From: an uncultured Kordiimonas sp.
Lineage (GTDB): Bacteria; Pseudomonadota; Alphaproteobacteria; Sphingomonadales; Kordiimonadaceae
Direction of reading: 5' to 3'
Length of the DNA: 64,000 bases
Assembly (NCBI GenBank): GCA_947500295.1
Contig: CANMRM010000001.1
Coordinates: 434,001 to 498,000 of the forward strand
Of the stretch, positions 25,661-49,937 are shown one piece after another. The notes below the pieces were generated by a model, which worked only from the letters and a program-made list of their open reading frames with translations, did no database searches and was not told the DNA's origin. The position numbers and the translations under genes were made by a program. Each line of letters starts with the position of its first letter. Within the stretch, counting starts at the first letter, position 1.

Positions 25661-25736
25661 GCCGCTTTAGCTCAGTTGGTAGAGCACATCATTCGTAATG
25701 ATGGGGTCACGTGTTCGAGTCACGTAAGCGGCACCA
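25661..25736 (+). tRNA. tRNA-Thr (anticodon CGT)
   Basis: The acceptor stem GCCGCTT (25661-25667) pairs with AAGCGGC (25726-25732), followed by discriminator A and an encoded CCA (734-736 of that line). The D-loop has the usual CTCAGTTGGTAGAGC. The anticodon stem CATCA/TGATG holds loop TTCGTAA with anticodon CGT, reading ACG codons. The T arm is GTTCGAGTC. The gene is intact. Its last bases form the left attachment site of the mobile element. Confidence 0.97.
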
Positions 25737-27310
25737 TCTAACAAAACTGGTGAAAATTCAGCGAAATTCCCGCCTAAGACATTGAAAGGTAAGGAAGTCG
25801 TAGGAGTTCTATATCCTTCATTTCGCGTGAAGAGCAAAGGCTCCGAAAACACCAGTTTTAACACCAGTCTACGCAAGGTGAACTTGCCGGAAGCCCATAT
25901 TTCATAGGGGTTTGCGAGGAATCGGAGCGAGAGTTCTAGCGTTTCATCAAAGGAGGGCTGCGGGGCCGCTGTATTTGCGGCTTTTTCTTCCAATACTAGC
26001 TTCTTTTGTTCCAATGCACCCACCCGGTTTTCAAGGGCAGTAATCACTCTTTCATTGGTTGTTTCAACAATACGGTCAATGAGTTTTTGAATCTGCGACT
26101 CCGCATCCTTAATGTCTTTGTCGATGGTTTTTATACTGGCGGCCGCGCGCTCAATCTTTGCGTTCCAGTATTTGCGGAACATGGCAACCGTAACCTTGAA
26201 CAAGCTTTCCTTGGGCTGCAAAGAGGCAAGCAAGGTTTCAAACTTCCCTTCAATTTCAGCGCGGGGAATTGATTTGCCGTACACCTCACAGCCTTTGGTC
26301 TGGCACAGATAGTAAGCGAACCTTTTGGTCTTGCCTTTACTCCAACTACTTCGCAAAGGTTTGCCGCAGCAACCACAGGCGACAGCGCCGCGCAGGATGA
26401 AGTCTTTATTCAGGTCTTTGCGGGCCGGGGCATATGAGCCGCCGTTTAGCCGTTCCTGTATCTTCTCAAAGGTTGACTTGCTGATCAGTGTTTCATGCTT
26501 ACCCTCTCGGTAGGGAACGCCCCAGATCGGAGCGCCGACATATCCGGCATACATTTCCTGTTTGAGAAAGCGTATAACTTTTTGCTGCCTGATCCTGCCA
26601 TCCGGTAAGTCCTTTGGAAATTCGGGCTGTGCTTCAAGAAACCGTTTCGCTTCCGCTTGCGTGGCAAATCTGCCCGAAGCGTATCCTTCCAGCATTTCCT
26701 GCAAGATAGAAGCGAGAGGTTCATCCCGGACCACTATATGACTATTGCTGCCTTTGGCTTTCACATACTTATAGCCATGGGGAAGTTGGGAGAATACGGC
26801 ATAACCCTGCTCAAGCCGGGCAATGCTTTTTTGCCTGTTTTGGCGGGCCATTGTTTGGCGGTCATATTCACCAAACGCGGCGTTAATTGTCTCGTTCAAC
26901 TTACCTTCGGGTGTGTATTCAAAATTGAAGTTTAGACATTCCCGGATTGCGCCGCGTTCCATCATGATTCGGCGAAGGTGCAAATGGAACTCGGTGTCGC
27001 GGGCGTAGCGTTTAAGATCATCAAATACGACTCTGAAATTCAGTTGGGGATATTTGTCCATGAACTTGAGCAAGGAAACCATGCCCTTACGCTTCAAAAA
27101 GTCTCCGCCGCCTGTCACATCATCATAGAAGATCGCAACGATTGTATAACCCTTGGCTTCTGCATATTGGCGGCATCGGTGTTCCTGACTACCAAGGCCC
27201 GTCTGTCCGGGGCTGGAAACGCGGGTGTAAATTATTGAGAGTTCCGCATCTGCTGGCAGGGATAATATTTCGTCTTCAGATAAAATTTCAGGCACCAAAT
27301 CCCTTGGCAT
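25667..27310 (-). CDS. Large serine recombinase (integrase) whose C-terminus is antisense tRNA-Thr
   Basis: In the integrated form the product has 547 residues. It has a resolvase catalytic domain with nucleophile Ser32 in YTRVSSPGQ, a recombinase domain, a zinc ribbon (C312, C314/C315, C336, C341) and a coiled coil (residues 385-445). Codons 1-527 lie in the element. Residues 528-547 (AYVTRTRDPIITNDVLYQLS) are the complement of tRNA-Thr, so they are not native. AAGGAG precedes ATG 27310. In the excised circle the frame would continue into 49856-49758 instead, giving 559 residues. Confidence 0.93.
   Translation of the reverse strand: MPRDLVPEILSEDEILSLPADAELSIIYTRVSSPGQTGLGSQEHRCRQYAEAKGYTIVAIFYDDVTGGGDFLKRKGMVSLLKFMDKYPQLNFRVVFDDLKRYARDTEFHLHLRRIMMERGAIRECLNFNFEYTPEGKLNETINAAFGEYDRQTMARQNRQKSIARLEQGYAVFSQLPHGYKYVKAKGSNSHIVVRDEPLASILQEMLEGYASGRFATQAEAKRFLEAQPEFPKDLPDGRIRQQKVIRFLKQEMYAGYVGAPIWGVPYREGKHETLISKSTFEKIQERLNGGSYAPARKDLNKDFILRGAVACGCCGKPLRSSWSKGKTKRFAYYLCQTKGCEVYGKSIPRAEIEGKFETLLASLQPKESLFKVTVAMFRKYWNAKIERAAASIKTIDKDIKDAESQIQKLIDRIVETTNERVITALENRVGALEQKKLVLEEKAANTAAPQPSFDETLELSLRFLANPYEIWASGKFTLRRLVLKLVFSEPLLFTRNEGYRTPTTSLPFNVLGGNFAEFSPVLLDGAAYVTRTRDPIITNDVLYQLS
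25730..25737. repeat. attL core (GGCACCAT) at the tRNA-Thr 3' end
   Basis: The 8-bp sequence GGCACCAT covers the last two acceptor-stem bases, the discriminator, CCA and one further T. It recurs in direct orientation at 49857-49864. The bases just inside the element (25738-25760) match those just outside attR (49865-49887) at 14 of 23 positions, including CAAAAC. That would be expected if one recombinase binds both P' and B' arms. It lies inside the recombinase reading frame. Confidence 0.75.
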
Positions 27311-27330
27311 ATCGTGACTCCTTAACTCCG

Positions 27331-27705
27331 CTATTCAGCGGCTTTGTTGTATTTATCAGTTAATTTTCTATCCTTTGATTGTACCATATTATCGCTTGGA
27401 AAGTCGCTCTCAGAGTCGATTTCCGCGAGTTTTCCACACTCTTGTAGGGCGTGCTGGATAGGGTGATCTTTCCACGCCAAATCTACAAAAGCACGGACGA
27501 TAAGTCGTATCGCTTGCAGAAATTCGAGACGTTGTTCTTCTGTCAAATCCGGGTCGTCTTCAAGCAACTCGTCGAACTCCGCCAATTCCTCTGCACTCGA
27601 TGGATTGTTGGGATCAAGGAGCGCGGCAACGATCTCGCATACGTCCAGATCAGTTGCATTGCCATCATCCTTACGAGCTATCTCGTCAGGTGTTTCCGCT
27701 AACAT
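27331..27705 (-). CDS. Acidic hypothetical protein co-transcribed with the recombinase
   Basis: The 124-residue protein starts at ATG 27705, preceded by AGGAG. The central part is strongly acidic (EELAEFDELLEDDPDLTEEQ). No family is recognised. It lies 20 nt upstream of the recombinase on the same strand, so a role in recombination, such as a directionality factor, or in regulation is conceivable. There is no direct sequence evidence for either, and it lacks an obvious DNA-binding motif. Confidence 0.65.
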   Translation of the reverse strand: MLAETPDEIARKDDGNATDLDVCEIVAALLDPNNPSSAEELAEFDELLEDDPDLTEEQRLEFLQAIRLIVRAFVDLAWKDHPIQHALQECGKLAEIDSESDFPSDNMVQSKDRKLTDKYNKAAE

Positions 27706-27778
27706 TTTCGTTCTCCTGCTCCGATCCTCTAGGTGCCGCTTGTTTTCCGTTTGCTCCAACCGTTAAAAAAGTGTGGTT

Positions 27779-27807
27779 TTTGTACAGTAGGGATTACTTT
27801 TTTTCAA
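27779..27807 (-). promoter_or_regulatory. Candidate sigma70-type promoter of the recombinase operon
   Basis: On the reverse strand TTGAAA (27807-27802) and TACAAA (27784-27779) are separated by exactly 17 bp. They lie about 75-100 bp upstream of the ATG at 27705. It is the best match to a housekeeping promoter ahead of the recombinase operon. Its significance is that in the circular form it would also drive mobC-mobA. Confidence 0.5.
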
Positions 27808-27831
27808 AGAAACCGTAGGAAAACTGCGGGT

Positions 27832-27872
27832 TTCCACACGATTGTATAACAATGTCATTCAACCGTGTGGAA
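27832..27872. promoter_or_regulatory. Inverted repeat TTCCACACG/CGTGTGGAA upstream of the recombinase operon
   Basis: Perfect 9-bp arms at 27832-27840 and 27864-27872 flank a 23-bp centre that itself contains the symmetric ATTGTATAACAAT. It sits about 25 bp upstream of the candidate -35 element. It is a plausible operator for control of excision, or alternatively a terminator-like structure at the end of the upstream gene, although no U-run follows. Confidence 0.5.
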
Positions 27873-27879
27873 TGGCTCT

Positions 27880-28383
27880 TTAGTGCGACGGTCCCGGATT
27901 GCTCTGCACATGTTCCGGGCCGGGCTGCGCTTGCTCCTGCTGCGGCGCGGCCTGTGCCATTGCTGCTTCCTGCTGCTGGCGCAAGTCCTGCTGCGGTTGC
28001 GCGGGCGATTGCTGGCTCTGCTCAAGCGGTGCCTGTTGTTGCGCTTGCTCAGGCTGGCCCTGTTCCTGTTGTTGCACCTTTGCCCTGTCCCGGTTCTGCT
28101 GCTGAAAATACCGGACAGAGTCTTGCGCCTTTTCAGCAAGTTCAGGAATTTTGTACATATCATCGCTTTTGAAGTTTCGAGTTTCCCGCCTCTCACCTGT
28201 TTTGCGATCCGTGTAGGTCTTCTGGAAGGTGACGCTGTAATAGGCGTTATTCTCTTTATCGTGGTTCTCCCATATTTTCACGGACACATCACCCAAGCGA
28301 TGCGTAGAGACAGGCGGGTTGCCCTTCTGCGCTTGTGGCTGAGGTGCTGTATTTTGGGCTGATGTTTGTGTCTGTTCTGACAT
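27880..28383 (-). CDS. Glutamine-rich hypothetical protein
   Basis: The 167-residue protein starts at ATG 28383 behind AAGGAGAAG. Residues 35-95 form a folded beta-rich part (VSVKIWENHDKENNAYYSV). The C-terminal 70 residues are almost entirely Gln, Ala, Pro and Glu. The tail shares the motif EAAMAQAAP with the next protein, encoded by an identical 27-nt DNA stretch. I do not recognise a family. Its place in the coupling-protein gene block suggests a transfer-related role. Confidence 0.75.
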   Translation of the reverse strand: MSEQTQTSAQNTAPQPQAQKGNPPVSTHRLGDVSVKIWENHDKENNAYYSVTFQKTYTDRKTGERRETRNFKSDDMYKIPELAEKAQDSVRYFQQQNRDRAKVQQQEQGQPEQAQQQAPLEQSQQSPAQPQQDLRQQQEAAMAQAAPQQEQAQPGPEHVQSNPGPSH

Positions 28384-28538
28384 TGGTCTTCTCCTTTGGT
28401 GGTTAAGGGCTGTCACCGTGACGGCCCGGATCGTGTAGGGGTGTGTGTCTGCTCATGCGTCATGGTTGGTTGGGATTGCGCGCGTAGCCGGGCATGGGCG
28501 CGCTCTTGATCCGGCGCGGCCTGTGCCATTGCTGCTTC
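27943..28538. repeat. 27-nt direct repeat shared by two adjacent genes
   Basis: An identical 27-nt sequence occurs at 27943-27969 and 28512-28538, in the same orientation and the same reading frame of both genes (encoding EAAMAQAA in each). It is likely a duplicated or recombined low-complexity coding segment. Confidence 0.8.
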
Positions 28539-28850
28539 GCGTTGTTCTCGCATCCACTCATGCGCAAATTTCAGCCTGTCGGACTCTTTCGAGAGATCAC
28601 GGGGCGGCCTGAGGTCATGGCGGGGCTTATCCTTGGCGACCATGGTTGAGCCACGCCGATAATCCTTGACCTGATCTTCCCAGCGTTCGCTTTCACTCCG
28701 GCGCTGGCTTTCCGTCTTCTTGAGATCGTCCAGTTCGGCGCGCTTGAACGGATCACGGTTGCGGTCAAATTCGCGGCGCATACCCGGCACCTTGCCTTGC
28801 AATGGTGATGTGTCATTGGCCGCATTAAAGCGGTTTCGTCTTCCGGCCAT
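28413..28850 (-). CDS. Basic hypothetical protein with Arg-rich centre
   Basis: The 145-residue protein MAGRRNRFNAANDTSP is rich in Arg, Asp and Lys and is predicted to be largely helical or disordered. Its C-terminal segment carries EAAMAQAAPDQERA, the motif also seen in the neighbouring Gln-rich protein. Its start overlaps the stop of the upstream membrane protein gene (shared base at 28850). The function is unknown; membership of the transfer-gene operon is clear. Confidence 0.7.
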   Translation of the reverse strand: MAGRRNRFNAANDTSPLQGKVPGMRREFDRNRDPFKRAELDDLKKTESQRRSESERWEDQVKDYRRGSTMVAKDKPRHDLRPPRDLSKESDRLKFAHEWMREQREAAMAQAAPDQERAHARLRAQSQPTMTHEQTHTPTRSGPSR

Positions 28851-29137
28851 CAGTCTTTCCTTTCCTTGATAAACTGCCTGCTATCGACAAAGGCAAACCA
28901 CGGGCATTCGGGCATGAGTGGCACATCGACAAAGCCGCGTGAGCCGAGATAGGTACAGCGCGTGTGGATGCGGTATCCGTTTGAGCCAAACGACCTGTAC
29001 TCATACTCAAAACGCAAATGCGGCCCGATGGGGCTGACGAAAAAGGCAATCAGCAAGAGGGCCATCGGCTTGTGTTTGAAAAATCGGCCAATCCGCCGAA
29101 AAATGCGCGACAGCCAGTAGAGCAATTGCTTACGCAT
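28850..29137 (-). CDS. Small membrane protein of the coupling-protein operon
   Basis: The 95-residue protein starts at ATG 29137, with GGAGATC upstream. A basic N-terminus (RKQLLYWLSRIFRRIGRFFKHK) precedes one transmembrane segment (MALLLIAFFVSPIG), and a soluble tail with two cysteines follows. It overlaps the end of the VirD4-like gene by 8 nt. The topology suggests a membrane partner of the coupling protein; no family is recognised. Confidence 0.65.
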   Translation of the reverse strand: MRKQLLYWLSRIFRRIGRFFKHKPMALLLIAFFVSPIGPHLRFEYEYRSFGSNGYRIHTRCTYLGSRGFVDVPLMPECPWFAFVDSRQFIKERKD

Positions 29138-31130
29138 AGTGATCTCCATTGTTTTCGGGTTTTGGGGCAAATAGCTTTTTGAGCAATCGAATGAGCAGCG
29201 GGCCGTCAGGGTGCGGTAGGCGCAGCTTCACAGGTGCAATAAACGGCTTGCCGTGGAACGGGTTTATGTCGATCTGCTCCCGCAGCGGGTCCACCTCGGC
29301 AATGGTCGGCAGATCAACCTCTATCGGCTTGTTCTTGCGGATAATCAGAATGCCTTTTTCGGTGCGCCGGGCTTCATCGGCAGTTTTGAGCGCGCGGCCA
29401 TCTTCCTTGAAATCCGCGCCTTCGGTGGAAAACAGCCCGGACTTGTCCTTGCTGCTGTGCCCTTGCACCATCACGGACTCGGTGCCGACAGTCTTTTCAA
29501 TCAGGTCTAGTGTTTCCGGCTCGCGTGTGCCGGGCAGGATCAGCTTGATTTCTGTCTCGGACAGAAGTGTGTTGAAGCACTCTCTGGTGTAGCGGGAAAT
29601 GAAGGCGCTGAAGGATTGGAATATGGTTAGGATTACCAGCCCGTATCCGCCGCACCAAGTCAGTAAAGACTGCAAGTCGGCTATGGTATAATTGGTCACT
29701 TCGTCAGCAATCCAATAGACACGGCGTTTCTTGTTTGGATGCGCCTTAATCTCGGTCTGGAAACACCATTGCAGCAGCGCGCCAATCTTGCCCTGTTCAA
29801 TCGGATTGGCGGCATCGAGAACAACACAGGCATTCACCGCTTGCGGTCTTGGCTTCAACCAAGAAAACAGCCCTGCAAACCACTTGCGGATTTTTGTAAC
29901 CAGCCGCGCAATCAGGCTGGCATCTGTATCTTCCGGCTCCGCTTCCTCTACCGGGCCTTTCATTTCGGAAAAATTGAAGGTGGACTTCGAGAGGCATTTG
30001 TAGGCGTGGGTGGATTTGTTGAAAGGCTTTAAGGCAGTCTTCGCGCCCTTGAGAAAGCTGGATGACTGCCTTTTATCCGGCTCCTTTAACTGATCGGACA
30101 TTTCAATTGCCAAGTCCCGGCAAAAGGTGATGAAATTATCCAAGTCTTCCGGCGTATGCCGTTCCACCCAGTACAACTGCTCAATCGGCATTGGGTCCAC
30201 ATATGGCCCCTCTTTTTTCTTTTTCTTCTTCGTTTCCTTTTCTTCGTCTTCCGGGTCTTCGTCTTTGATTAGGCGGCCCGCAATCCAGAGCGCATTGTCG
30301 AGCAGTTCCTTGCGGTTGCACAAAAGATGGTAGACATCCCCAAGATTGGCCCTGATGCCATCCAAGAGCACGCAAACCAGTATCGCAAACTGGATGTAGT
30401 CCCGTTGACCTTCGCGCCAGAAATTGCCGTTTTCCTCGCCGCCATCTTCCTTGGGTTCAGGGGATAACTGCATACTCATTTGCGAAAGCACTTGTGAGAT
30501 ATTCAGAGTGCCGCCCGGCGTAATCAGGCATTTGAAAATGATATTCTCAAGGGGGTTATAGAAGTCGGTCTTGCCCAGAATGTCGGGGTACATATTCCCG
30601 ATATTGAGGATGCGGATGATCTCGTCGCGCGCTTCCAAAGCACCCCTGACGACACAGACGATTTCTGCCTTGAAATCAATCCAGAACTTACTGGCAAAAA
30701 TCGTCAGTATCGTGATCAGCAAAACCCGCACGCCCTTGCCCGATCTTGCCGGACCCAAAATGAGCGCGTTACTCTCGAAATCCGAAAAAATGGGCTTGCC
30801 CTTGAAGGCTCCCCAATACGGCCCCCAGCCTTTCAGGAGTTCGTGCTTGATCTCGCGCAGGCTCTTGATCCACCCGGCAGTGCCTTTATGCCCGGTGGCG
30901 GTGCGGGCATACTTCCAGTTGGTAAGCGCCGCCAGCAGGCTGAAAATGCCGCCGATAAGCCCCATCGCGCCCATAAACAGCGTGATGGCCGCAATCGTGG
31001 AAATCCAGTTGATATGCGGCCCTATGATTGGCGGGCCGTAGCTGTCCAGCACATAGAGGGAGCCGAAGATGAAGACCAGGGGGAAGATAACCGCCCCTTG
31101 GTCTTCATCATCTTGTTGCTGCTGTGCCAT
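29130..31130 (-). CDS. VirD4/TraG-like conjugative coupling ATPase
   Basis: The 666-residue protein has two N-terminal transmembrane segments (residues about 13-32 and 42-70), Walker A GPARSGKG at residues 126-133 and Walker B VYWIADE at 471-477. It ends in a long C-terminal region. This is the architecture of type IV coupling proteins that carry relaxase-DNA to the secretion channel. A poly-lysine/acidic insertion lies at residues 290-307. Its ATG overlaps the stop of the upstream gene. No VirB4 or pore genes accompany it here. Confidence 0.88.
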   Translation of the reverse strand: MAQQQQDDEDQGAVIFPLVFIFGSLYVLDSYGPPIIGPHINWISTIAAITLFMGAMGLIGGIFSLLAALTNWKYARTATGHKGTAGWIKSLREIKHELLKGWGPYWGAFKGKPIFSDFESNALILGPARSGKGVRVLLITILTIFASKFWIDFKAEIVCVVRGALEARDEIIRILNIGNMYPDILGKTDFYNPLENIIFKCLITPGGTLNISQVLSQMSMQLSPEPKEDGGEENGNFWREGQRDYIQFAILVCVLLDGIRANLGDVYHLLCNRKELLDNALWIAGRLIKDEDPEDEEKETKKKKKKEGPYVDPMPIEQLYWVERHTPEDLDNFITFCRDLAIEMSDQLKEPDKRQSSSFLKGAKTALKPFNKSTHAYKCLSKSTFNFSEMKGPVEEAEPEDTDASLIARLVTKIRKWFAGLFSWLKPRPQAVNACVVLDAANPIEQGKIGALLQWCFQTEIKAHPNKKRRVYWIADEVTNYTIADLQSLLTWCGGYGLVILTIFQSFSAFISRYTRECFNTLLSETEIKLILPGTREPETLDLIEKTVGTESVMVQGHSSKDKSGLFSTEGADFKEDGRALKTADEARRTEKGILIIRKNKPIEVDLPTIAEVDPLREQIDINPFHGKPFIAPVKLRLPHPDGPLLIRLLKKLFAPKPENNGDHYA

Positions 31131-33285: not shown

Positions 33286-33388
33286 GGGCTTTTCTCCGTC
33301 TTGGTTGCCCGGCGCGGGGCAAAGTTCGAGTGTTCGCGGAATCGTGACTCCGGCGTGTTTTGACTTGCTGTTTTGGTGAGGTGGTGGG

Positions 33389-34198: not shown

Positions 34199-34263
34199 CA
34201 GTCAATCCAATCACATAATATCGGCAAATAGGAATTATCCGCCATTATGGATTGACAGTACTA

Positions 34264-34301: not shown

Positions 34302-34314
34302 TACTTGTCGCGTG

Positions 34315-34938: not shown

Positions 34939-34941
34939 TTT

Positions 34942-38559: not shown

Positions 38560-38580
38560 AATTTTTTGTTTGCCGTGTGG

Positions 38581-40160: not shown

Positions 40161-43100
40161 TCACCATTCAAATTTTTCGTCTCTGTCTCTGTCCCATTCG
40201 GCTTCACGTTCGCGTTCTTGTGCAACCACACCAACGTAGACTGGTAGTTTCGCCGAAGCCCACTCCACGACTTTTGTATTTTTCTTCTTCAATAGTTCTT
40301 CGAGTAGCGGTATGCGCTGCTGCATTATGTCAGCTTTTGATCCACTCCAGCCCATAGGAGCGAAACGATCCAAAAAGATATCAAGAACAGCTACAGGGTT
40401 TGGTGCTAATTGTATCAGCTTGCTCGCGGCTGTGGTCCATTGAGCAGGCGTGTCTTGGCCTGCCTGAATGAAATACCTAATTGCTTCTGCCAACTTTGGA
40501 AACCTAGCCTCTGGATCAACTTGAGCCCATTCCAGCAGTGTAATATCGGATATATTGTCAAGTGGATCATCTCTATCTTCTCTTAAGTCACTAAATATAC
40601 CGCGCAGGCCAAAATACCCATTATCAGACTGCCCCACAAAAACGTCCAACAACACTATTGGGTGGGTAAGGGAAATTGCACTCATAAATCTCTTGAACTT
40701 CCCCGCGTAAACGTGATGTTCTTTGATGGCCATCAGGAATTTTTCACATACGGATCTGGCAACTGGTTCACTGTTCGTTTCTTTCAAACAGGCTTTTGCG
40801 ATTTCTCCCAACTCGTAGTCTTCTTGTTCAGATCGATCCTCAAAGCTGAGTTTTGATAGCAGCATTCGGCCAATAGCTTTCTGCGCATCATTGGCTGGTT
40901 TTTGCTTTGAACTCAGCCCGTGAAGGAACATGCTGAAAATATCAAGCGCGGTTCCCAAGCCATCTTTTTTGTCAGATAACAATTTAAGAATTATTGCAAG
41001 GTCACCGTCTGGTATCTGTCCGGTTACGCCTCCAAACGCCAAATTTCGGAACGAATAAACAGGGATTGTTTCAATCTTAAGCGCACGCTTTAAACGCTCT
41101 ATTCCTCGCGCCGTGAGCCCAGCGTTGATTTGTAAATATACAAATGTATCGTGCAGCCTTTCGTCATCTAGCGCTGTGTCTAAGAAGTTTTCCGCCGCCT
41201 CAATATCGATAGTTGCTATGGAGCTTATAAAGCCTCCCAACAATCCGGTGTTGTTGCCTGAATGAAGGTCGTCATAAGTAGCTTCAACGATCACATCCCA
41301 CAGTTGGGCTGGAGATGTGCAGCCTTCCGCCAAACCCTTTCCTAAAGACCATACTTTGTTAGCTTTGGAAGCAAGAATTTCAGGAAGGAGAGCGTTTAAA
41401 TCATCAGGTGATTTTGCCAGTTTTTCACCAAGGTCGACGCAGATTTCCATTATCTTTTGCCGTGCCTCAACAGGCTTATTTTCTTCGTCTTCATCAAGGT
41501 CGGCAATGTCCAGAACTCCCCATTCCTTAGTCAGGGCATAACTCCGCACCATATCAGAGAGTTTCTTGGGAGCCAGTCTTTCTGCCAGCTTTTGAAGCTT
41601 CTGCAATTCTTCGGCAGGCATGTTTTCCCGCCGAGCTTTGATAGCTGATCGCACACCAACCCAACCAAGTGGCCAACCTTCATCAAGAGACAATGCGCCT
41701 GCTACTGCGATAGTTTTATCAAGCAAAAGGGGGTGACGACTTAACCACCTAATTTTGGCAGCAAAACGTTTTTGTACTTCTTGTGAATACGGACGGTTAC
41801 CTGCACCAAACTCTGTGACAATATCAAGCACAGCATTGAACCAATCTGAAATATCATCGCTGTTTTCTGGGTGCAGTCCGTAGTCCCTTGGTCTGGCTCC
41901 AAATTCGAAACCGTAATGTGAGGTAAAATGCTCTGTTTGCAACATAGCGCCTAGCGCCGACAGCCCTAGTTCATGATCCAACGGATCATTACTTTCCAGC
42001 AGTTTCCTGATGACGGCTACCCGTTGTGCTGGGCTTGCGTGTGTTCCTGAAAGGTAAATATAAAAAAGCGATTTCGTAACTTCACGTGCATTATGAGTAT
42101 TATTGCCAGCTACTTCTTCATGATGCCCAAAGCGGACTAACAAGCTGACACTTCTTTCGAACAAATCTGCTTCATATGCGAGTGACCGCAATATGCCGAT
42201 AATTACTGCGCGGTTGGTGTTCTCTGTAGTGAAAAAATCACTATCTGAATTCGCCGCTTTTTCCAAATAAGACAGAGTTAATTCAGGATCGATGGGCGCG
42301 ACATTGCCCAACAGAGCCTCGCCAAGCTTGTTGAGATTGCCGACCTTCCCCAAAAGGCCATCCACAGATAACCAGTTTTGTACCAGTTTCTTTGCGTGTT
42401 CGGTATCGTGCAAAAAGCCTATTCGCCGAGAAAATGACTTTAGAAGTCGGGGTGATCCGCCATTGATGATGTTTTCTTCAATGATTTGAAAAGGAACATC
42501 CTCAAGTGCAACCTTGGCAAGATGATGTGCTAACGCATGGGGCAATACTGCACGCCACTTGCTTCTTTTTTGTACTAGTTGTCGCCGAAAAAGCTCGGCT
42601 GAATGCCGATAGAGTTGATGCGCGGTTTGCCCAACAAGGTTTGCCAGCAGAGGAAGTTCTGCATCTTCTCCATTAAGAGTCTCACCATCGTAAGAATAGA
42701 CCAGAGAGCACGCTTTAGCTGCATCAAGCAGGTTAATGTCGATACTCTTGTTCTGATGGAATAGGCGGTCAAATAACTCAGAATCTCGCATGTTTGCCAA
42801 AGATTCGCCATTCTCCGCTGTATTGGCGAGGGCAAAGGCAATCCTTGCATTTCCATCTGAGAATTCAGCTATTTTACGCCGATCAGGGCCTGACAATGCA
42901 GGAAAGCGTACTTCAAGGATTTTTTGGATCAAATCTTCGGTAACGGCCTCCAACTTGAAAACATCTGTATATTCAGGCTCATCGTCCTGAATGTCATACT
43001 CAATAGTGAGTAAACTCACTAAACCACTGGATTGATTGATCCGAGCAACCAGTTTTTTATGAAGCTCGATACCACAGTTATCGATGATGAGAACCGCCCG

Positions 43101-43982
43101 TTGTCCTCTGATGATTAACCCCGACAGAAGGTCTTGTGGCACCGGATCGGGGCTATCCGATATGTCTGTGTATATTGCCGTTGTTGGCTCAAGCGCGCCT
43201 TCTCCCACCCTGTTATCAAAAAGCGCTTGAGCAAGCCTTGTTTTGCCAACCCCTGAGAGACCGACAAGCCTCACTATTCCCTTGGGTTCGGCGAGGATTG
43301 CTCTTATCGTATTGATACCATCTGTAGTACCAAGGCTATTATCTTCTGAAATCCGGGCGCGCAACAAGCGTACTTTGTCATCTGCAAAGTACTCAGCGTC
43401 AGTGGATGTTGGCGAACTTGACCAGTCATCAAAAGGGCGCCAGTGGGAAATCGTGTTTCCTGTTTTTTTTAAAACCCAAGTAACAAGACCGGGATGCTGA
43501 TTTGTCCAAGTTGCCAATCGTCTTTGATCGTAAAAATCAACATGTAGGCTCTCGGCTGATTCCACACCTACCAGCGCCTCCACCATTGCATTTTGCCTGT
43601 TGGTTAGTGCCGTGTCGCTTAGAGAGCTTTTGGAGCTTGCAATAATGTATGCGCCGTTTTTTTCACCCAGCTCTCTTATGCTTGCAAGTAATTTACCCTT
43701 TGGAGCCATTTCCTTCAAAATGGCAGCGCGGTTCATGTCTGTCGCTTTGACCTGAATTCCCGTAGATGGTCTTGGGACATAGCCGGAAATTACAGCAGTC
43801 TCATCAAGTTCAACTCTAACATCAATGCCGCCATCAGGAGCATTTTGGTGGCCGCCCCATGTTACCCCCGCCGTTGATTGACTAACATTATGCACTTCCA
43901 GTTCACAAAGATGCGCTAGCAGTGTTCGCAGGTCCGCATCATTAAGACGGGCTATGTGATCAGGACTGACTTCAAATATCAT
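40161..43982 (-). CDS. STAND-type NTPase with N-terminal PD-(D/E)XK nuclease (Avs-like defence protein)
   Basis: The 1273-residue protein starts at ATG 43982. Residues 15-165 hold a restriction-endonuclease-like fold (NAPDGGID at 47-54, IQVKAT at 76-81, the D...QxK pattern). Residues 205-500 hold a STAND NTPase with Walker A GLSGVGKT (241-248) and Walker B AVLIID (296-301). The remaining 750 residues are helical repeats suited to ligand sensing. This is the layout of antiviral STAND effectors. It lies 8 nt after brnA and is AT-rich. Confidence 0.8.
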   Translation of the reverse strand: MIFEVSPDHIARLNDADLRTLLAHLCELEVHNVSQSTAGVTWGGHQNAPDGGIDVRVELDETAVISGYVPRPSTGIQVKATDMNRAAILKEMAPKGKLLASIRELGEKNGAYIIASSKSSLSDTALTNRQNAMVEALVGVESAESLHVDFYDQRRLATWTNQHPGLVTWVLKKTGNTISHWRPFDDWSSSPTSTDAEYFADDKVRLLRARISEDNSLGTTDGINTIRAILAEPKGIVRLVGLSGVGKTRLAQALFDNRVGEGALEPTTAIYTDISDSPDPVPQDLLSGLIIRGQRAVLIIDNCGIELHKKLVARINQSSGLVSLLTIEYDIQDDEPEYTDVFKLEAVTEDLIQKILEVRFPALSGPDRRKIAEFSDGNARIAFALANTAENGESLANMRDSELFDRLFHQNKSIDINLLDAAKACSLVYSYDGETLNGEDAELPLLANLVGQTAHQLYRHSAELFRRQLVQKRSKWRAVLPHALAHHLAKVALEDVPFQIIEENIINGGSPRLLKSFSRRIGFLHDTEHAKKLVQNWLSVDGLLGKVGNLNKLGEALLGNVAPIDPELTLSYLEKAANSDSDFFTTENTNRAVIIGILRSLAYEADLFERSVSLLVRFGHHEEVAGNNTHNAREVTKSLFYIYLSGTHASPAQRVAVIRKLLESNDPLDHELGLSALGAMLQTEHFTSHYGFEFGARPRDYGLHPENSDDISDWFNAVLDIVTEFGAGNRPYSQEVQKRFAAKIRWLSRHPLLLDKTIAVAGALSLDEGWPLGWVGVRSAIKARRENMPAEELQKLQKLAERLAPKKLSDMVRSYALTKEWGVLDIADLDEDEENKPVEARQKIMEICVDLGEKLAKSPDDLNALLPEILASKANKVWSLGKGLAEGCTSPAQLWDVIVEATYDDLHSGNNTGLLGGFISSIATIDIEAAENFLDTALDDERLHDTFVYLQINAGLTARGIERLKRALKIETIPVYSFRNLAFGGVTGQIPDGDLAIILKLLSDKKDGLGTALDIFSMFLHGLSSKQKPANDAQKAIGRMLLSKLSFEDRSEQEDYELGEIAKACLKETNSEPVARSVCEKFLMAIKEHHVYAGKFKRFMSAISLTHPIVLLDVFVGQSDNGYFGLRGIFSDLREDRDDPLDNISDITLLEWAQVDPEARFPKLAEAIRYFIQAGQDTPAQWTTAASKLIQLAPNPVAVLDIFLDRFAPMGWSGSKADIMQQRIPLLEELLKKKNTKVVEWASAKLPVYVGVVAQEREREAEWDRDRDEKFEW

Positions 43983-43990
43983 TATCTGAC

Positions 43991-44254
43991 TTATTGATCG
44001 GGCGTTTTCGTGTGGACGTATGCCTTGAGAATAGCATTCATATGGCTTTGATAGCCTTTGCCTTGGTTCTTGAACCACTCGATAACATCTTCATCAAGCC
44101 GCAAGGTCAGCTTTTTCTTGGAGGAGGGCATGGCAAGCTTGGCATTCTCCCAAAACCTCTTATCCAGTTTTGGAATATCGCTGTAATCAATCTCGCTGTC
44201 CGGCATTGCTGCCAGTTCATCAAGGCTCATTTCTTTATCATAGCGCTTCTTCAT
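43991..44254 (-). CDS. brnA: BrnA-family antitoxin
   Basis: The 87-residue protein from ATG 44254 has the BrnA C-terminal ribbon-helix-helix KKKLTLRLDEDVIEWFKNQG followed by GYQSHMNAILKAYV. It neutralises BrnT and represses their shared promoter in known systems. It overlaps brnT by 17 nt and is followed 8 nt later by the STAND nuclease gene on the same strand. Confidence 0.93.
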   Translation of the reverse strand: MKKRYDKEMSLDELAAMPDSEIDYSDIPKLDKRFWENAKLAMPSSKKKLTLRLDEDVIEWFKNQGKGYQSHMNAILKAYVHTKTPDQ

Positions 44255-44507
44255 ATCGTTTCCTTTCTGCCCGGTTTGCACGCCGCGCTGAAATAATGCG
44301 GGTCTTGCCCTTGCGGTCAGTATGCACAACCGCCAGTACAACAATGCCATCTATTGCGCCTATACTGACTTTCCGCACTTCTCCGTAATCGGTGCGGTCA
44401 TCAAGAGCAGTCAGAACAGGGCCATCAAATATGCGGCAGGCTGTTTTGAAGCCGATACCGTGTTTTTCGATATTCAGCCTGTTCTTTTTCTTATCCCATT
44501 CATACAC
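44238..44507 (-). CDS. brnT: BrnT-family ribonuclease toxin
   Basis: The 89-residue protein from GTG 44507 reads YEWDKKKNRLNIEKHGIGF and later DRTDYGEVRKVSIGAIDG, IISARRANRAERKRYEE, the BrnT signature (RelE-like fold). The longer frame upstream does not match the family. The region just before the start contains the symmetric ACAATTGT, a possible operator for the BrnTA complex. Confidence 0.93.
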   Translation of the reverse strand: MYEWDKKKNRLNIEKHGIGFKTACRIFDGPVLTALDDRTDYGEVRKVSIGAIDGIVVLAVVHTDRKGKTRIISARRANRAERKRYEEAL

Positions 44508-44679
44508 TACAATTGTACCTACATTTGTCGGGCATTGCAAGAAATATGACCCGTCAAAACCGCCCGGAAGAATCAAGCCATACACCAGCTAATACTATTT
44601 TCCCTCGCGTGAAAAGTGTGTTGCTCGCTTTTATTTGTTCGCTGTATGTTCTTATTCGGGGGTGTGTGGAGAATTGGCG

Positions 44680-45315
44680 ATGTGTGGACGAATGAGCTTG
44701 ACGGAAAGCCCTAGCTGGAAACAACTTTTTGAATATTACGATGCCATCAATACGCGGGTCAGGCCAGAGCCGTTAAAGCCACGCGCCAACATTTCCCCCG
44801 GTACAGACGTACCCATTATAGCGGAGCGTTACGACCAGCGCCGCGCCACCAATGCAAAATGGGGATTAGTGCCGCGCTTTGCCAAATCCATCGGCACCTT
44901 CAAGACCTTCAATGCGCAGCTAGAGGGCTTGAGAGCATTAAGCCCACCCGCTTCCTACCGGGGGCCGCTGAAAGACTGTATGCGCTGCTTGATGCCGATG
45001 AATGCCTATTATGAATGGAAGGATGGAAAGCCCTATAGTTTTGCCCTCACAGATCATGAGTTATTCGCGGCGGCTGGTCTATGGGAATGGAACGCGGAAT
45101 TAAACGTACTGTCCTGCACCATGATTACCTGCGAGGCCAATGACACTGTAGCGCCGTATCATGACCGTATGCCTGCATTGCTTACGACCAATGAACAGCG
45201 GGCGCACTGGCTTTCAAGGGATGTGTCCAGCCAAGAGGCATTGGCGAAGATCGGACCCTATGAAGGGGATGGCATGCGTATCAATCTGGCGCAGCTTGTT
45301 GAACCGAACGCTTGA
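44680..45315 (+). CDS. SRAP/HMCES-family abasic-site DNA-protein crosslink enzyme
   Basis: The 211-residue protein from ATG 44680 starts MCGRMSL, placing the catalytic Cys at position 2 after Met removal. It retains the SRAP segments PRANISPG, AKWGLVPRF, NAQLEGLR, RCLMPMNAYYEWK and the active-site His in APYHDRMPALL. It shields abasic sites in single-stranded DNA by covalent crosslinking. This would be useful during transfer, when the element enters as single strand. It is divergent from brnT. Confidence 0.92.
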   Translation: MCGRMSLTESPSWKQLFEYYDAINTRVRPEPLKPRANISPGTDVPIIAERYDQRRATNAKWGLVPRFAKSIGTFKTFNAQLEGLRALSPPASYRGPLKDCMRCLMPMNAYYEWKDGKPYSFALTDHELFAAAGLWEWNAELNVLSCTMITCEANDTVAPYHDRMPALLTTNEQRAHWLSRDVSSQEALAKIGPYEGDGMRINLAQLVEPNA

Positions 45316-45368
45316 TTTTGTGCGTCTGTTTGTCCGAGAATACAGCGACAAACAAAACCGGATGGAAA

Positions 45369-46481
45369 ATGAAACTTTTGTATAGTGGTTCTTCTTTTTG
45401 CGATGAAGTGACCCTGAAAAGATTGCTGGTTGTTGCAGAAGAAATTCAGTTCATGGACAGGCCGTCCGTAACCTTCGGCAATTGGGGAACAATCGGCCAA
45501 GATTCATTTGCACGAAGGATTGACTCTACAGGATCGCCTGTCGGGATATCGGCAATATCGCCCCCGACTGATCCACTCAGGAACCTCTACAGCCCATTTT
45601 TAAAAGCGGATATCAACAATCCTCAATTTGCTGCCTGTATACTCAGGGGGTTGAAATCAAGCGACATCTTCGCCTCCAAATTCATCCAGCTTAATGCGAA
45701 TTACGGGAACGGTCTTACTGGCAGTGATATCGTTGAGACACTGCGCGCTTGCGGCAACGAATTGATTCAGGATTTAAACGATGAGCCACCAGCGGGGCCG
45801 CATACCTTTAACGTATCGATTGACGAAGGAAAAAGGGAAACGCTGAAAGCAATATTGTTTGACGCATCAATCCAAGTCACCAGCACCTTGATGGTGGCTG
45901 AGCAGGAAGGCACCATACCTGTCAGCGAAGATCCCTTTTTTGCGGAACTGATTGCCCTTAGAGCCACGGACTCAGGTTATGTAGGCCACACACCGAAAGC
46001 CGCACCTTATGTTGGATTGGATATCGCCAAGGCCGTAATACCCGATGAAATGTTAAGCCAAATGCAGGTTCCCGATATCCTGAAATACCGAGAAAAATCA
46101 AAGGATGCATACGAGGCGTGGACTACCGAAATTAACCGCGCAACCTCCAGTATTGGCGGCATGGGTACAGGTGTCTCTCCTGACGAAATTGCAAGGATAG
46201 TCACAGCGGACTTAATACCGCAGCTAACCGAATACAAAAATGAAATGAGCGCGATACGCGATGATCTGTTCGCAAGTCTGGTGAAAAAGGTTGTGAAATG
46301 GGAAATGCCTACGATCTCTTTTGCGTACTTGGCTGATCTTGGATTTGCTGGAGCAATCACGTTGTTTGTTTCTGCATTGGCCCCCGCCGTTCCTGACACA
46401 ATCGACTATTTCAAAGACAGGAGAAATGCAGAAAGGCGTAATGCCATGGCGTTTCTTATTGGGTTGTCAGACAAAGTATAA
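45369..46481 (+). CDS. Hypothetical protein of unknown family
   Basis: The 370-residue protein from ATG 45369 begins MKLLYSGSSFCDEVTLKRLL. It is mostly soluble and helical (residues 110-300), with one possible membrane segment near the C-terminus (LADLGFAGAITLFVSALAPA) and a basic end (DRRNAERRNAMAF). I do not recognise it. Its place between SRAP and ardA suggests an entry-protection or defence role, which is inference only. Confidence 0.6.
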   Translation: MKLLYSGSSFCDEVTLKRLLVVAEEIQFMDRPSVTFGNWGTIGQDSFARRIDSTGSPVGISAISPPTDPLRNLYSPFLKADINNPQFAACILRGLKSSDIFASKFIQLNANYGNGLTGSDIVETLRACGNELIQDLNDEPPAGPHTFNVSIDEGKRETLKAILFDASIQVTSTLMVAEQEGTIPVSEDPFFAELIALRATDSGYVGHTPKAAPYVGLDIAKAVIPDEMLSQMQVPDILKYREKSKDAYEAWTTEINRATSSIGGMGTGVSPDEIARIVTADLIPQLTEYKNEMSAIRDDLFASLVKKVVKWEMPTISFAYLADLGFAGAITLFVSALAPAVPDTIDYFKDRRNAERRNAMAFLIGLSDKV

Positions 46482-46501
46482 CTTTGACGTTTTCAGTTAA
46501 T

Positions 46502-46673
46502 CGGGGCACATCCCCGCCAAAAAGCGGGGTCAGGCTCTATGCCGCTAACCCTTCCGGCCAAAGAAACCGGAAAGGCCAAGCTGTATGAAGCCGCCGGAGT
46601 CGGCTTCACCCATACGGGTAACGATCCTTTGCGCAAAAGAAATGTAGTCCGCTTCCAAAGAAGCGGGCTTTTT
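46502..46673 (+). ncRNA. Structured ardA leader with alternative hairpins and an intrinsic terminator
   Basis: CGGGG (46502-46506) and GCGGGG (46524-46529) both can pair with the same CCCCG(C) (46512-46517), so the two hairpins exclude each other. Further stems are CCCTTCCGG/CCGGAAAGG (46549-46575, one mismatch), GAAGCCG/CGGCTTC (46587-46607), ACCC/GGGT (46608-46619) and the terminator CCGCTTC/GAAGCGG with five T (46649-46673). It lies 220 bp upstream of ardA. Confidence 0.55.
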
Positions 46674-46890
46674 GTTTGCTTAGGGCCAGCCCTCAGCGCA
46701 CTTCGTGAAAAACCAGACAGCAGAGATTATTTCGTAATCGGCTCCCCCTAAAGGTCGCCCCCAATTACGAAGACAATCTTTCGCGGCTTTTTCCCTCCGT
46801 TTGCACACCCGTTTCAAGGGGTCGGCATGGGTTTAAAGGCGAGGCGCAAGCTTTCGCTTCAAACCCAATTTCTAAGGAAGGAAAGAGCAG
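46674..46890 (+). promoter_or_regulatory. Distal ardA upstream region
   Basis: After the terminator the sequence holds AGGGC/GCCCT (around 46682-46693). A second structured element, GGGTTT...AAACCC (about 46829-46866), encloses smaller GCGA/TCGC pairing. It then has AAGGAAGG as the ribosome-binding site. No gene is supported here. Promoter elements probably lie in 46690-46830 but are not clear. Confidence 0.4.
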
Positions 46891-47397
46891 ATGACACAGT
46901 TTTATGCACAACCCTATGACTTCGCTGCAAGCGGTTTTTATTTTGAGGATGCGGAAACCTACAAAGGCAAAATTGGCAAGGTCCGCAACGATTACGGCGA
47001 GATTGTTGAAGAATTTGAAATCCAGTTCATTGACGGTGAAACCATCGACTGCGAAGTATGCGAGGCCATAGGGCTGTACCAGTCCAATATCCTGAGCATC
47101 ATGGAAAAGCTGGAAGAATGGGACGATGAAGAAAAGCGAGATATCGCCATTGCAGCCGGAGAATGCGGCTATAGCTTCGATGTTGAAAAAGACAGCCCTT
47201 ATGATTTTGATATCACGATTTACGAAGTCGATAGCCTCAAGGAATTGGCTTATCAGTTTGTTGATGAGGGTTTATTTGGTGAAATCCCGGCCAACATAGC
47301 TTGTTACATAAACTATGACGCAATGGCCCGCGATCTGGGCTGCGATTATACCGAAACTACGATTAACGGGCAGGGGGTTGTCTACCTAATGCACTAA
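46891..47397 (+). CDS. ardA: Antirestriction protein ArdA
   Basis: The 168-residue, very acidic protein is typical of ArdA DNA mimics: start YAQPYDFAASGFYFEDAETY, then repeated Asp/Glu, and YQFVDEGLFGEIPANIACYI, the conserved central region. It blocks type I restriction enzymes when the element enters a new cell. AAGGAAGG lies upstream, and a long structured leader precedes it. Confidence 0.94.
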   Translation: MTQFYAQPYDFAASGFYFEDAETYKGKIGKVRNDYGEIVEEFEIQFIDGETIDCEVCEAIGLYQSNILSIMEKLEEWDDEEKRDIAIAAGECGYSFDVEKDSPYDFDITIYEVDSLKELAYQFVDEGLFGEIPANIACYINYDAMARDLGCDYTETTINGQGVVYLMH

Positions 47398-47485
47398 TGG
47401 ACAGTATCAGGGTGCGACTAAAGTGCAATAATTCAGACCTGATCTGACAGTCGCCGACTACGTGTTGTTTGAAGTCAAGTTAGGT

Positions 47486-47929
47486 TTAGTTTTTTCTCAC
47501 CCAAGTTGATTTCCAAATTTGCACATGATCTCCATCAAACGATGTCATACCGCCCTCTAAGTTATCTCCCTTGTCTTGCACCCTCAAAAAGATAGACCCT
47601 CCATCTTCTTCTACAAAGTGGTCGTTTTTAGCAGCTCTGAAATCAATAGCTAAAAAAGGGTATCTGTAACTTCCCTTAAAATCGTATTTCTTATTCTTTT
47701 CTTCACCCACACGAACCAGAATTTCACCCCATACCATTGAACCAAATTGTTTCAAGATTACGCTGTCCTTGGTTCCATCGTCATGTGTTGCAATCCAATG
47801 ACCGTTCAGCTTTTTGGCTTCCCCTTTGAATAAATTGTGAAAGACGTCTCGAAGTAACCTATTCCATAAATACACGGCTGTTCCGACTAGAACGGCTCCG
47901 ATTATTTCAGTTTCTATACCGTCAAGCAT
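47486..47929 (-). CDS. Membrane-anchored beta-rich hypothetical protein
   Basis: The 147-residue protein from ATG 47929 has one N-terminal transmembrane helix (IGAVLVGTAVYLWNRLL), then about 115 residues that alternate beta strands (LNGHWIATHDDGTKDSVILK...GGSIFLRVQDKGDNLEGG). A single-helix plus small beta-barrel layout is found in some antiphage effectors, but I cannot assign a family. It is AT-rich and lies downstream of mobA on the same strand. Confidence 0.55.
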   Translation of the reverse strand: MLDGIETEIIGAVLVGTAVYLWNRLLRDVFHNLFKGEAKKLNGHWIATHDDGTKDSVILKQFGSMVWGEILVRVGEEKNKKYDFKGSYRYPFLAIDFRAAKNDHFVEEDGGSIFLRVQDKGDNLEGGMTSFDGDHVQIWKSTWVRKN

Positions 47930-48049
47930 AGCAATTAACCCCGATGATAGTTGCGGATAAATTATAGAATATCGGATTATTGAATTCCTGAATATGGCAA
48001 AAAATCGCCAATCGTCCCGATTATATTGAGGGTAAATCAATCCCATAAT

Positions 48050-49306
48050 TTACCGCCCGTAACCCCGGCCCGGCATGATCGGTTGCCTGTCATGGTAACG
48101 GCCAAGATCACGCTCTATGGCGCGGATTTGGTCATGGTGCTTGCTTGACATGGCCTTGGCGTGCTGCTGGTGCATCCTGCGCTCCGAAAGCTGCTCAGTG
48201 ATCAGGTTTTCCTGTTCTTTCCTGTCCCTGCGTTGCGCTTGTTTTGCTTCTTGCTCATTGAGCTTTCTGATGCGGGCATGTTCTCCGCGCATCCTGTCCC
48301 ATAAGCCTTTAACGCCCCTGCGAAAGCGTGATTGACGATCAACAGCTTCCTGTTGGCTGCGCTTTAGCTGCTGTTCCTTGAGGGTTTTGCGTTCTTCGCG
48401 CTGGCGCTTCACCAGTTGTTCACGCTCCCGGCTGATAGCGGCCTGTTGCTTGTTCACACTGGCCGAGACTTCCGCTTTCATACGCCGTATGGTCGGGGTC
48501 ATGTCCTTGGCGATTTGTCGCCTTGCCTGGTCAACACTAGGCAAGTCACTCTCATCGCCAAGGCGCGCGCGCAGCTTGGCAACCCGCATTTTTGTTCTTT
48601 GGGCTATGGGGTAAACCTCATTGAAGATATCAACCGCGACAAAGCGCCCGCGATCACCGCGCGCCAGCACATAGCCCCGTTCCTTGAGTGCATTCTTAAA
48701 CCCGGCCTTTGAATCCGATATTGCCCACGCATCGGTTATGGCCGTCTTGACGGCACGCGGGTCTTTGCCCGTGCGCTTGGCCTGTTCCCATTCAGCCCGT
48801 GAAAAGTTCCTGTAATCACGCTCGGATTTCTTGCCGAAACCGCGTGGCATTTTCCAGCCGCGTTCAATGAATATCTCGCGGGAGAGATCAAATAGCTTGC
48901 TATGGTCATGCGACATATGCACCGCTTTCATCTCCGCAATGTCGATGCGGCTCCAAACAACATGGGCATGTCTGCGCACCGTCCCGTCCAGCCCGGCCTT
49001 TTCGTGGAACACAATCGCCCGTGGTTGCCCCTCAAGGCCCAGCGTCTTTTCCGCGCGGTTTATGGTCTGTTCAAATTCCGCGATACTGACGTGTTTCTCA
49101 GGCGGGGGATTGACCGACAGGGAATAAAGAAACTGTTTGCACTTGGTGCCACGGCTGACCGCGTAAGCCTCATTCAGCGCCCCCATGAGATTATCAGACG
49201 CAAAGCCACGTATCTCATGGATTTCAACATGATCGTTTTCATCCTTCACAAGATGCTGCGCCAGATTCTTCGCTCCGCCGCGCTGGTTTCCCTCAAGCAT
49301 CGTCAT
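48050..49306 (-). CDS. mobA: Relaxase (MobA/VirD2-type mobilization nuclease)
   Basis: The 418-residue protein has an N-terminal relaxase domain: start LEGNQRGGAKNLAQHLVKDE, motif III RRHAHVVWSRID (metal-binding His pair). The active tyrosine candidates lie near residues 48-61. A basic, Gln/Arg-rich coiled-coil tail (residues 280-400) follows. It would nick oriT and pilot the strand through the coupling protein. Its ATG overlaps the mobC stop by 4 nt. Confidence 0.88.
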   Translation of the reverse strand: MTMLEGNQRGGAKNLAQHLVKDENDHVEIHEIRGFASDNLMGALNEAYAVSRGTKCKQFLYSLSVNPPPEKHVSIAEFEQTINRAEKTLGLEGQPRAIVFHEKAGLDGTVRRHAHVVWSRIDIAEMKAVHMSHDHSKLFDLSREIFIERGWKMPRGFGKKSERDYRNFSRAEWEQAKRTGKDPRAVKTAITDAWAISDSKAGFKNALKERGYVLARGDRGRFVAVDIFNEVYPIAQRTKMRVAKLRARLGDESDLPSVDQARRQIAKDMTPTIRRMKAEVSASVNKQQAAISREREQLVKRQREERKTLKEQQLKRSQQEAVDRQSRFRRGVKGLWDRMRGEHARIRKLNEQEAKQAQRRDRKEQENLITEQLSERRMHQQHAKAMSSKHHDQIRAIERDLGRYHDRQPIMPGRGYGR

Positions 49307-49761
49307 GGGCGATCACCCGATTGCGGTTTGATACCGAGCGCCACAATCAACACATTGCGCATTTCGCTGATATCGTCACAGGCACTATGCAGTTTGTCGG
49401 TGAGTTCATCATCAACAGGCAGCGCCCCGCACTGTGCGGCCATAGAGAGCGCTATCATGCTGCGGCCAAGTTCAGACTGGCCGAGCGTCCCTAACAACTG
49501 CGCAAGCGCCACATGGTCAATGGTGGGGTTGTGAGGCTTGGTGTGCGAGCGCTGCCTTGTGCCGCCCTTAGTCTCAGTTTTACCAAATAGCTTACGGCGG
49601 ATATGTTCACCCAAGGACAAACGCCCGGCTTCCCGTTCAAGCTGCGCGCGTTCATCCCATGACAGGCGCAGGGAAAAGGGTGGCGGGCTTTTACGCTTAG
49701 GTTTCTTGGTAGGTTGCCGCGCTACGGCGTTGAATTCCGATTTTGGAGAAGGTCGGTTCAT
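49303..49761 (-). CDS. mobC: MobC-like relaxosome accessory protein
   Basis: The 152-residue protein has a basic N-terminus and a ribbon-helix-helix-like region PPFSLRLSWDERAQLEREAG followed by LSLGEHIRRKLFG, typical of MobC proteins that open oriT for the relaxase. In the integrated state no clear promoter is visible upstream. In the excised circle its ATG overlaps the stop codon of the reconstituted recombinase gene. Confidence 0.85.
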   Translation of the reverse strand: MNRPSPKSEFNAVARQPTKKPKRKSPPPFSLRLSWDERAQLEREAGRLSLGEHIRRKLFGKTETKGGTRQRSHTKPHNPTIDHVALAQLLGTLGQSELGRSMIALSMAAQCGALPVDDELTDKLHSACDDISEMRNVLIVALGIKPQSGDRP

Positions 49762-49937
49762 AGGCCCGGCCCTTCCATATCAAAATCAACGTGTTTTAAC
49801 TGCGCTTCCCAGTCCTGCAATTCCTCGAACAAGAGTTCTAGGTTTTTCTCCTCCGGGGCACCATTTTCCAAAACAGATAAGATTTGATTCGCGCGGCCTG
49901 CTTGACGGATCACATGCAGCGAACCACAGTTTTGCAT
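49758..49937 (-). CDS. Displaced 3' end of the recombinase gene, read as a hybrid ORF across attR
   Basis: The 59-codon frame opens at ATG 49937 in chromosomal DNA and crosses the GGCACCAT core. It ends with the 32 element-encoded residues starting PEEKNLELLFEELQDW, with TGA overlapping the mobC ATG. The core codons AAT GGT GCC here match GAT GGT GCC in the recombinase at attL, in the same frame. I infer that 49758-49859 is the native recombinase 3' end and that the upstream part is chromosomal and fortuitous. Confidence 0.7.
   Translation of the reverse strand: MQNCGSLHVIRQAGRANQILSVLENGAPEEKNLELLFEELQDWEAQLKHVDFDMEGPGL
49857..49864. repeat. attR core (GGCACCAT)
   Basis: This is a direct repeat of the attL core at 25730. 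To the right, TTTTCCAAAAC would follow tRNA-Thr in the empty chromosome, giving a natural T-rich end. To the left, CTCCTCCG is element DNA. The location, 150 bp before the next chromosomal gene, fits an element end. Confidence 0.75.

Follow-up and report, generated by a model that had tools for sequence, protein, structure and literature searches.

A recombinase gene divided by the integration of its own element

The window analyzed here is a 64,000-nucleotide stretch of contig CANMRM010000001.1 (assembly GCA_947500295.1, positions 434,001 to 498,000, forward strand) from an uncultured Kordiimonas sp. of the Alphaproteobacteria. At a transfer RNA (tRNA) gene it carries an inserted integrative and mobilizable element (IME), whose large serine recombinase gene crosses one attachment-site (att) core and ends in host DNA (Table 1). 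Over the attL core the frame reads LLD-GGT-GCC-GCT, in the phase GAT GGT GCC, and ends within the complement of tRNA-Thr; residues 1 to 525 are encoded by the element, 526 and 527 by the shared core, and 528 to 547 by antisense tRNA. At attR the frame reads GGT GCC CCG GAG, with 32 further codons past the core (PEEKNLELLFEELQDWEAQLKHVDFDMEGPGL) and a TGA at 49760-49758. An earlier interpretation of this DNA, the sequence-only reading, had proposed that the recombinase frame runs through attL so that its last 20 residues are host sequence, and that the same 8 bp recurs at 49857 in the same codon phase ahead of 32 codons and a stop. The coordinates agree on each point: the first base of the GCC codon lies at 25732 in attL and at 49859 in attR, residues 528 to 547 lie wholly past the repeat, and the predicted joined protein of 559 residues is the sum of 525, 2, and 32. 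Absent from that account is the overlap at attR between the TGA of the displaced tail and the ATG of a mobC-like gene, whose product has no Pfam match.

The recombinase exceeds the cut-offs for PF00239 (Resolvase), PF07508 (Recombinase), and PF13408 (Zn_ribbon_recom), and its profile matches include the TP901-1 and YokA structures. Against the NCBIfam model for CcrB (NF047343) it scores 45.9 bits, where the curated cut-off is 900. Across 17 aligned recombinases, including that of the window, R30, S32 (which we take to be the catalytic serine), C312, C315, C336, and C341 are invariant. The 8-bp repeat itself occurs seven times on the plus strand of the window and three times on the minus strand; because it is so common, the case for an att pair rests on comparison with relatives.

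Table 1. Features of the integrated element and its target in the window
Feature	Position	Strand	Basis or remark
tRNA-Thr (CGT), integration target	25661..25736	+	ARAGORN; intact beside the element
Part of the recombinase frame supplied by the host at its 3' end: 20 antisense tRNA-Thr codons and a stop	25667..25729	-	
Large serine recombinase, 547 amino acids when integrated	25667..27310	-	Open reading frame (ORF) and Pfam
attL core GGCACCAT (minus strand ATGGTGCC)	25730..25737		
Family-level core TGG[T/C]G[C/G] at attL	25736..25731	minus	
Integrated element, about 24.1 kb, IME	25736..49863		Core positions
VirD4/TraG-like coupling protein	29130..31130	-	
Relaxase (PF03432), overlapping mobC	48050..49306	-	Pfam
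mobC-like gene, ATG overlapping the tail TGA (ATGA)	49303..49761	-	Named by position and homologues
Displaced native recombinase 3' end, 32 codons and TGA; family-conserved tail	49758..49856	-	
TAGAAC, +23 from the core; presumed zinc-domain site in the right arm of attP	49835..49840	-	
attR core GGCACCAT	49857..49864		

Related recombinases end in antisense tRNA

One genome scan yielded 37 relatives of the recombinase. Among 385 sampled alphaproteobacterial genomes, 27 matched a fused C-terminal query and 28 a longer query (E <= 0.001, a few of them weakly); across the phylum, 19 of 398 sampled genomes matched, 18 of which belong to the window's own class. An antisense tRNA lies at the end of 75 of 100 distinct recombinase C-termini, and the targets are tRNA-Thr (21), Arg (18), Leu (12), Ser (7), Ala (5), Val (5), Met (5), Tyr (1), and Pro (1). 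The remaining 25 comprise contigs that end at the junction, uncalled tRNAs, weak or distant matches, and one fused copy. Whether relatives' recombinases normally end before the core was a point that the sequence-only reading had singled out for checking: 72 of these 75 frames continue beyond the core, by 8 to 275 nucleotides (nt), and the three exceptions, taken up below, look decayed. The end of the integrated protein is thus host sequence and varies between genomes. Judged from these samples, the family appears to be widespread, mainly alphaproteobacterial, and served by a serine recombinase that inserts at the 3' ends of tRNA genes.

More distant relatives, with 31 to 42% identity, occur on contigs assigned to Paceibacterota, Yonathbacteria, Nomurabacteria, Roizmanbacteria, and Gottesmanbacteria (L092-L097). 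Their ends, for example LVEMPGIEPGCK, resemble antisense tRNA, with no tRNA called there, and the same arrangement may occur in these phyla too.

The displaced tail is conserved at the far end of related elements

Homologues of the window relaxase were found in 26 of the 28 recombinase-bearing genomes searched, a search that took in 28 of the 37 recombinase loci. With 40 of the 49 relaxase matches fetched together with their upstream DNA (the other nine being weaker or partial), a mobC homologue was found by search in 39 far ends, and in the last (L144) by eye. Ahead of mobC, all 40 carry a tail homologous to the 32 codons of the window, as judged by eye, with the consensus ESSNxLFETLADWEHQLK. 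The native C-terminus predicted by the sequence-only reading was thus recovered as a conserved peptide, in the matching frame, at the opposite end of relatives.

Counts of cores and motifs were made over 37 rows, the window and 36 relatives, which exclude L116, L125, L127, and L144 (core absent, contig start, or mobC unmatched), all four of which show the tail. The majority tail over these rows is MVHLEGESSNSLFETLADWEHQLKHLDIDF-DDFEGP-P. Counted from the core, tails in the family are about 35 to 75 codons long and end at or near the start of mobC, and in 29 of the 37 the stop of the tail and a start codon of mobC overlap as ATGA or GTGA.

Recombinase and tail are read in matching frames

The core is read as ATG GTG, or nearly so, in most lineages (the MV frame), and one base off, as (G/A)AT GGT, in the window and a few others (the DG frame). 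The core in each of the 37 rows was hand-picked by the tail peptide, without regard to how the recombinase is read. The frames of recombinase and tail match in all 15 same-contig pairs, window included, and likewise in a 16th (L080/L144) scored afterwards. Adding to the 15 four pairs joined through the sole relaxase match in a genome brings the agreement to 19/19, with the rarer frame present at both ends in 3/3 (Fisher p = 0.001, which kinship among the elements makes only a guide). Two loci needed a choice of piece: L098, whose tblastn range spanned frames, is in frame with its far end when read from the last tblastn piece, and L066, which has an internal stop, was read from its C-terminal piece alone. 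The core TGG[T/C]G[C/G] is common to both ends at positions 0, 1, 2, 4, and 5 in 15/15 pairs and at position 3 in 14/15, an identity that bounds the crossover.

Selection on the tail was gauged from the ratio of nonsynonymous to synonymous differences (pN/pS), taken as uncorrected proportions over 39 columns in 50 pairs of >=45% identity. The ratio is 0.24 between the window and L106, 0.17 for L133/L137, 0.20 for L111/L118, and 0 to 0.09 within the closest group (L132/L134/L135/L139, one pair undefined). Beyond the motif described next, codon diversity at the three positions is 0.49/0.39/0.63, third positions being the most variable. These values point to purifying selection on the tail in many, not all, close pairs, and to its conservation as protein.

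An attachment site that overlaps coding sequence

On the tRNA side, TYGAAC, which is antisense T-arm, stands at +18 from the core in 53/53 rows (window counted twice), as expected of a motif that is structurally constant in tRNAs. On the element side, the same motif stands at +23 in 27/37 rows, and in 34/37 with at most one mismatch; the window has TAGAAC there. No exact TYGAAC was found elsewhere at offsets 6 to 49 of the tail DNA in the 37 rows. In the frame-shifted lineages the position of the DNA motif is kept and the encoded amino acids differ. For the LI integrase, the zinc-domain motif is described as lying 5 bp closer to the center in attB than in attP (PMC3783163). The offsets of +23 and +18 reproduce this 5-bp shift of the zinc-domain site between attP and attB, in one half-site only, and suggest that the motif is a zinc-domain site, that the family may recognize tRNA 3' ends by way of the T-arm, and that the tail's first codons probably serve at once as protein-coding sequence and as attP DNA.

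The comparisons show that one attP half-site is the 3' region of the recombinase gene and the other the DNA encoding the conserved C-terminal tail. With attP inside the gene, a complete string of recombinase, tail, mobC, and relaxase exists only where ends are joined, in a circle or in a tandem array.

Natural fusions of recombinase and tail

The sequence-only reading had called for recombinases whose C-terminus matches the tail, and such fusions exist in nature. In a genome of the host's family (G020), contig C4 holds, on one strand, a recombinase C-terminus, ATGGCG, the tail, ATGA, mobC, and a relaxase (L211/L216). The recombinase of one element continues in frame into the tail of the other, as tandem insertion requires, and the junction lies 28 kb from the next recombinase, which sits at a tRNA-Arg gene, the arrangement that a tandem array predicts. 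A shorter remnant (L108) likewise has a recombinase C-terminus fused to the tail. In all, the G020 genome has eight recombinase-profile matches over contigs C1, C3, C4, C6, and C8, including the tandem array and decayed copies.

Two further candidates were rejected. L219 (G020:C4:410000-419000) aligned to query positions 12-220, but its tail is unconvincing and no mobC follows; beyond the core its C-terminus reads DGAPGRHSNTLLF..., without a tRNA or mobC, and is ambiguous between a joined and a decayed end. At G176:C61 a stop separates the pieces.

A model for the element and the alternatives

We consider it highly probable that these elements are a family of IMEs with attP inside the 3' part of their own recombinase gene, in which the tailed protein would be the integrating form and the joining of the ends would favor transfer. 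Integration exchanges the tail for antisense-tRNA residues, which vary with the host. The tailed recombinase made from the circle would be the form that performs integration, and the recombinase of the integrated copy, lacking the tail, would be less able to integrate or have a different specificity, so that loss of the tail would help to keep the element in place. Circularization would also put mobC and the relaxase gene behind the recombinase gene, and transfer genes would then be best expressed after excision. A stronger version, which we put forward tentatively as a possibility, is a state switch encoded in the DNA: the circle would yield a tailed recombinase able to recombine attP with attB and, across the same junction, an int-mobC-relaxase operon, and integration would at once remove the tail and separate the relaxase operon from its promoter.

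Several observations weigh against this model. Three of the 75 tRNA-ending C-termini stop ahead of the core, L269 by 10 nt, L169 by 38 nt, and L207 by 83 nt, and these appear decayed, having either stops within the match or an open frame that is short. L211, the one fusion that is nearly complete, contains two in-frame TAG codons upstream of the junction, so its recombinase is decayed. No circular or joined copy was found among the plasmid, phage, or viral records searched; of three viral contigs found, two (L183 and L185) read past the core into other sequence, one (L184) for a few codons, and none into the tail. The left half-site has no clear matching motif, and an inverted copy sought there was not found. 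Constraint on the tail is weak in some close pairs, with pN/pS of 1.0 in L126/L138, 0.74 in L126/L130, and 0.59 in L128/L129, and the median over the 50 pairs is 0.45. Finally, that the tail alters activity, and that mobC and relaxase lack a promoter of their own in the integrated state, are presumptions of the model.

Among the alternatives, the one that survives best holds that the tail is a real C-terminus without a role in recombination, kept so that ribosomes re-initiate on mobC in the circle through ATGA coupling. The frequent overlap of stop and start codons (29/37) favors it, but the 8/37 without an overlap still keep the tail, and amino acid conservation exceeds what coupling requires; we regard this explanation as unlikely. 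Far less probable is conservation of the tail as DNA only, in which it would serve as an arm of attP and the variation of the C-terminus would be a harmless by-product. The clear TYGAAC motif at +23, its position kept in both frames, is what such conservation would produce. However, the LFxxLxDWExQLK block lies beyond the motif, is most variable at third codon positions, and is kept in two different frames, several close pairs have pN/pS of 0 to 0.24 (others are higher), and co-variation of the two frames is not predicted by DNA-only conservation. We likewise give very little credence to an independent small ORF, a leader or regulator of the mob operon, that starts at or near a core ATG and is continuous with the recombinase by accident, since, although the core supplies ATG or GTG in many MV-frame tails and the tail is directly ahead of mobC, the DG-frame lineages (window, L106, L113, and L141-L143) have no start in the tail frame from the core codons, the base preceding TGG at attR belongs to the host flank and is other than A in 12/37, natural recombinase-tail fusions exist, and the frame co-varies with that of the recombinase (19/19 pairs), as a separate leader would not predict.

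Relation to known systems

An attP site within the recombinase gene, as in the model preferred here, has precedents. Myxococcus phage Mx8, whose target is a tRNA-Asp gene, is alike by description in that its attP core lies within the integrase coding sequence and the 3' end is replaced on integration. It differs in being a phage, whereas the window holds a mobilizable element, and we know of no mob operon joined at its junction. According to a review (PMC6070905), integration gives Mx8 int a new 3' end, and the integrase stays active with altered specificity. A swap of tails can thus matter, and this precedent lends plausibility to the suggestion of the sequence-only reading that exchanging the tail could favor one of integration and excision over the other.

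In the ssrA islands of Dehalococcoides, a CcrB-like serine recombinase, DsiB, has a 3' end that always overlaps attL, and it was suggested that full function may require the circle, or a neighboring island upstream that provides the 3' fragment (PMC3146451). The likeness is one of description; the passages cited show no conserved tail or missing 3' fragment. The islands also differ in their target, a transfer-messenger RNA (tmRNA) gene (T-loop), and in a partner recombinase, DsiA. The window element sits at tRNA-Thr, its relatives have a tRNA at 75 of 100 C-termini (with no search for tmRNA at the other 25), and a Pfam scan of 20 proteins of the element found no second resolvase gene.

The window recombinase shares its Resolvase, Recombinase, and zinc-ribbon domains, and its family the 5-bp attP/attB motif shift, with the integrases of LI/A118, TP901-1, and SPbeta (YokA/SprA). 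In the LI/A118, TP901-1, and SPbeta systems, attP is not known to fall within the coding sequence, nor are tRNA genes known as targets. The integrase gene of SSV-type archaeal elements also spans attP, but SSV integrases are tyrosine recombinases whose gene is split by integration, with the tail not replaced. In Tn916, it is only in the circle that transcription runs through the joined ends into the transfer genes; it is a full conjugative element with a tyrosine recombinase, and we know of no change to its integrase C-terminus.

The 2014 Islander study stated that serine recombinases were not known to target tRNA genes and named Mx8 and SSV as cases of an integrase gene extending across attP (PMC4383910), and in the relevant part of an IME review tRNA targets are described for tyrosine-recombinase elements (PMC5704250). 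A description of the present family was not found among the matches listed in the open-licence literature, which is weak evidence of absence, as most subscription journals lie outside it. An attP inside an integrase gene is therefore known; what appears to be new is a broad family of tRNA-targeting serine-recombinase IMEs with a conserved, mob-coupled tail.

Element content and host flanks

A recombinase, a relaxase, and a coupling protein are present, and no mating-pore protein was found among the 20 scanned proteins, the other ORFs being unscanned. With its own integrase, defined att ends, a relaxase, and no complete conjugation apparatus, the element is classed by gene content as an IME. 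Its cargo includes a 1,305-amino-acid protein (40161-44078, minus strand) that matches PADLOC PD-Lambda-4_A over nearly its full length (E = 0) and is a candidate anti-phage defence gene, a BrnT/BrnA toxin-antitoxin pair (43991-44585, minus strand; PF04365 and PF14384), an SRAP-family protein (44635-45315, plus strand), and an ArdA antirestriction protein (46891-47397, plus strand).

On the host side, the order hemY then tRNA-Thr(CGT) is also found in several congeners. In one of them (G013, L099), hemY, tRNA-Thr(CGT), and a homologue of window ORF 51401 are adjacent and uninterrupted, which identifies the window element as an insertion. The window has an extra stretch of about 1.5 kb between attR and ORF 51401 (49865-51400, with a PEP-mutase-like gene and ORF 50903), which is possibly an older or second insertion. 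The exact right-flank bases were unmatched in the congeners fetched, and because of this extra stretch the exact attB sequence was not recovered. A further copy of GGCACCAT lies within the stretch, at 50940.

Implications

How serine integrases are kept from reversing their own reaction is a central question. If the state switch holds, lock-in would be achieved without a separate directionality protein, and a single recombination event would fix the direction of the recombinase as well as readiness for transfer, throughout a large family of serine integrases that read the T-arm of tRNA genes. The many lineages provide natural pairs of C-terminal variants, tailed and tail-less, which make the role of the tail directly testable. 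As the family targets many tRNA isoacceptors, seemingly through a T-arm-like half-site, it is also a candidate source of tools for inserting DNA at tRNA genes. In annotation, the C-terminus that an integrated copy appears to have is antisense tRNA, and the conserved one lies at the other end of the element, 24 kb away in the window.

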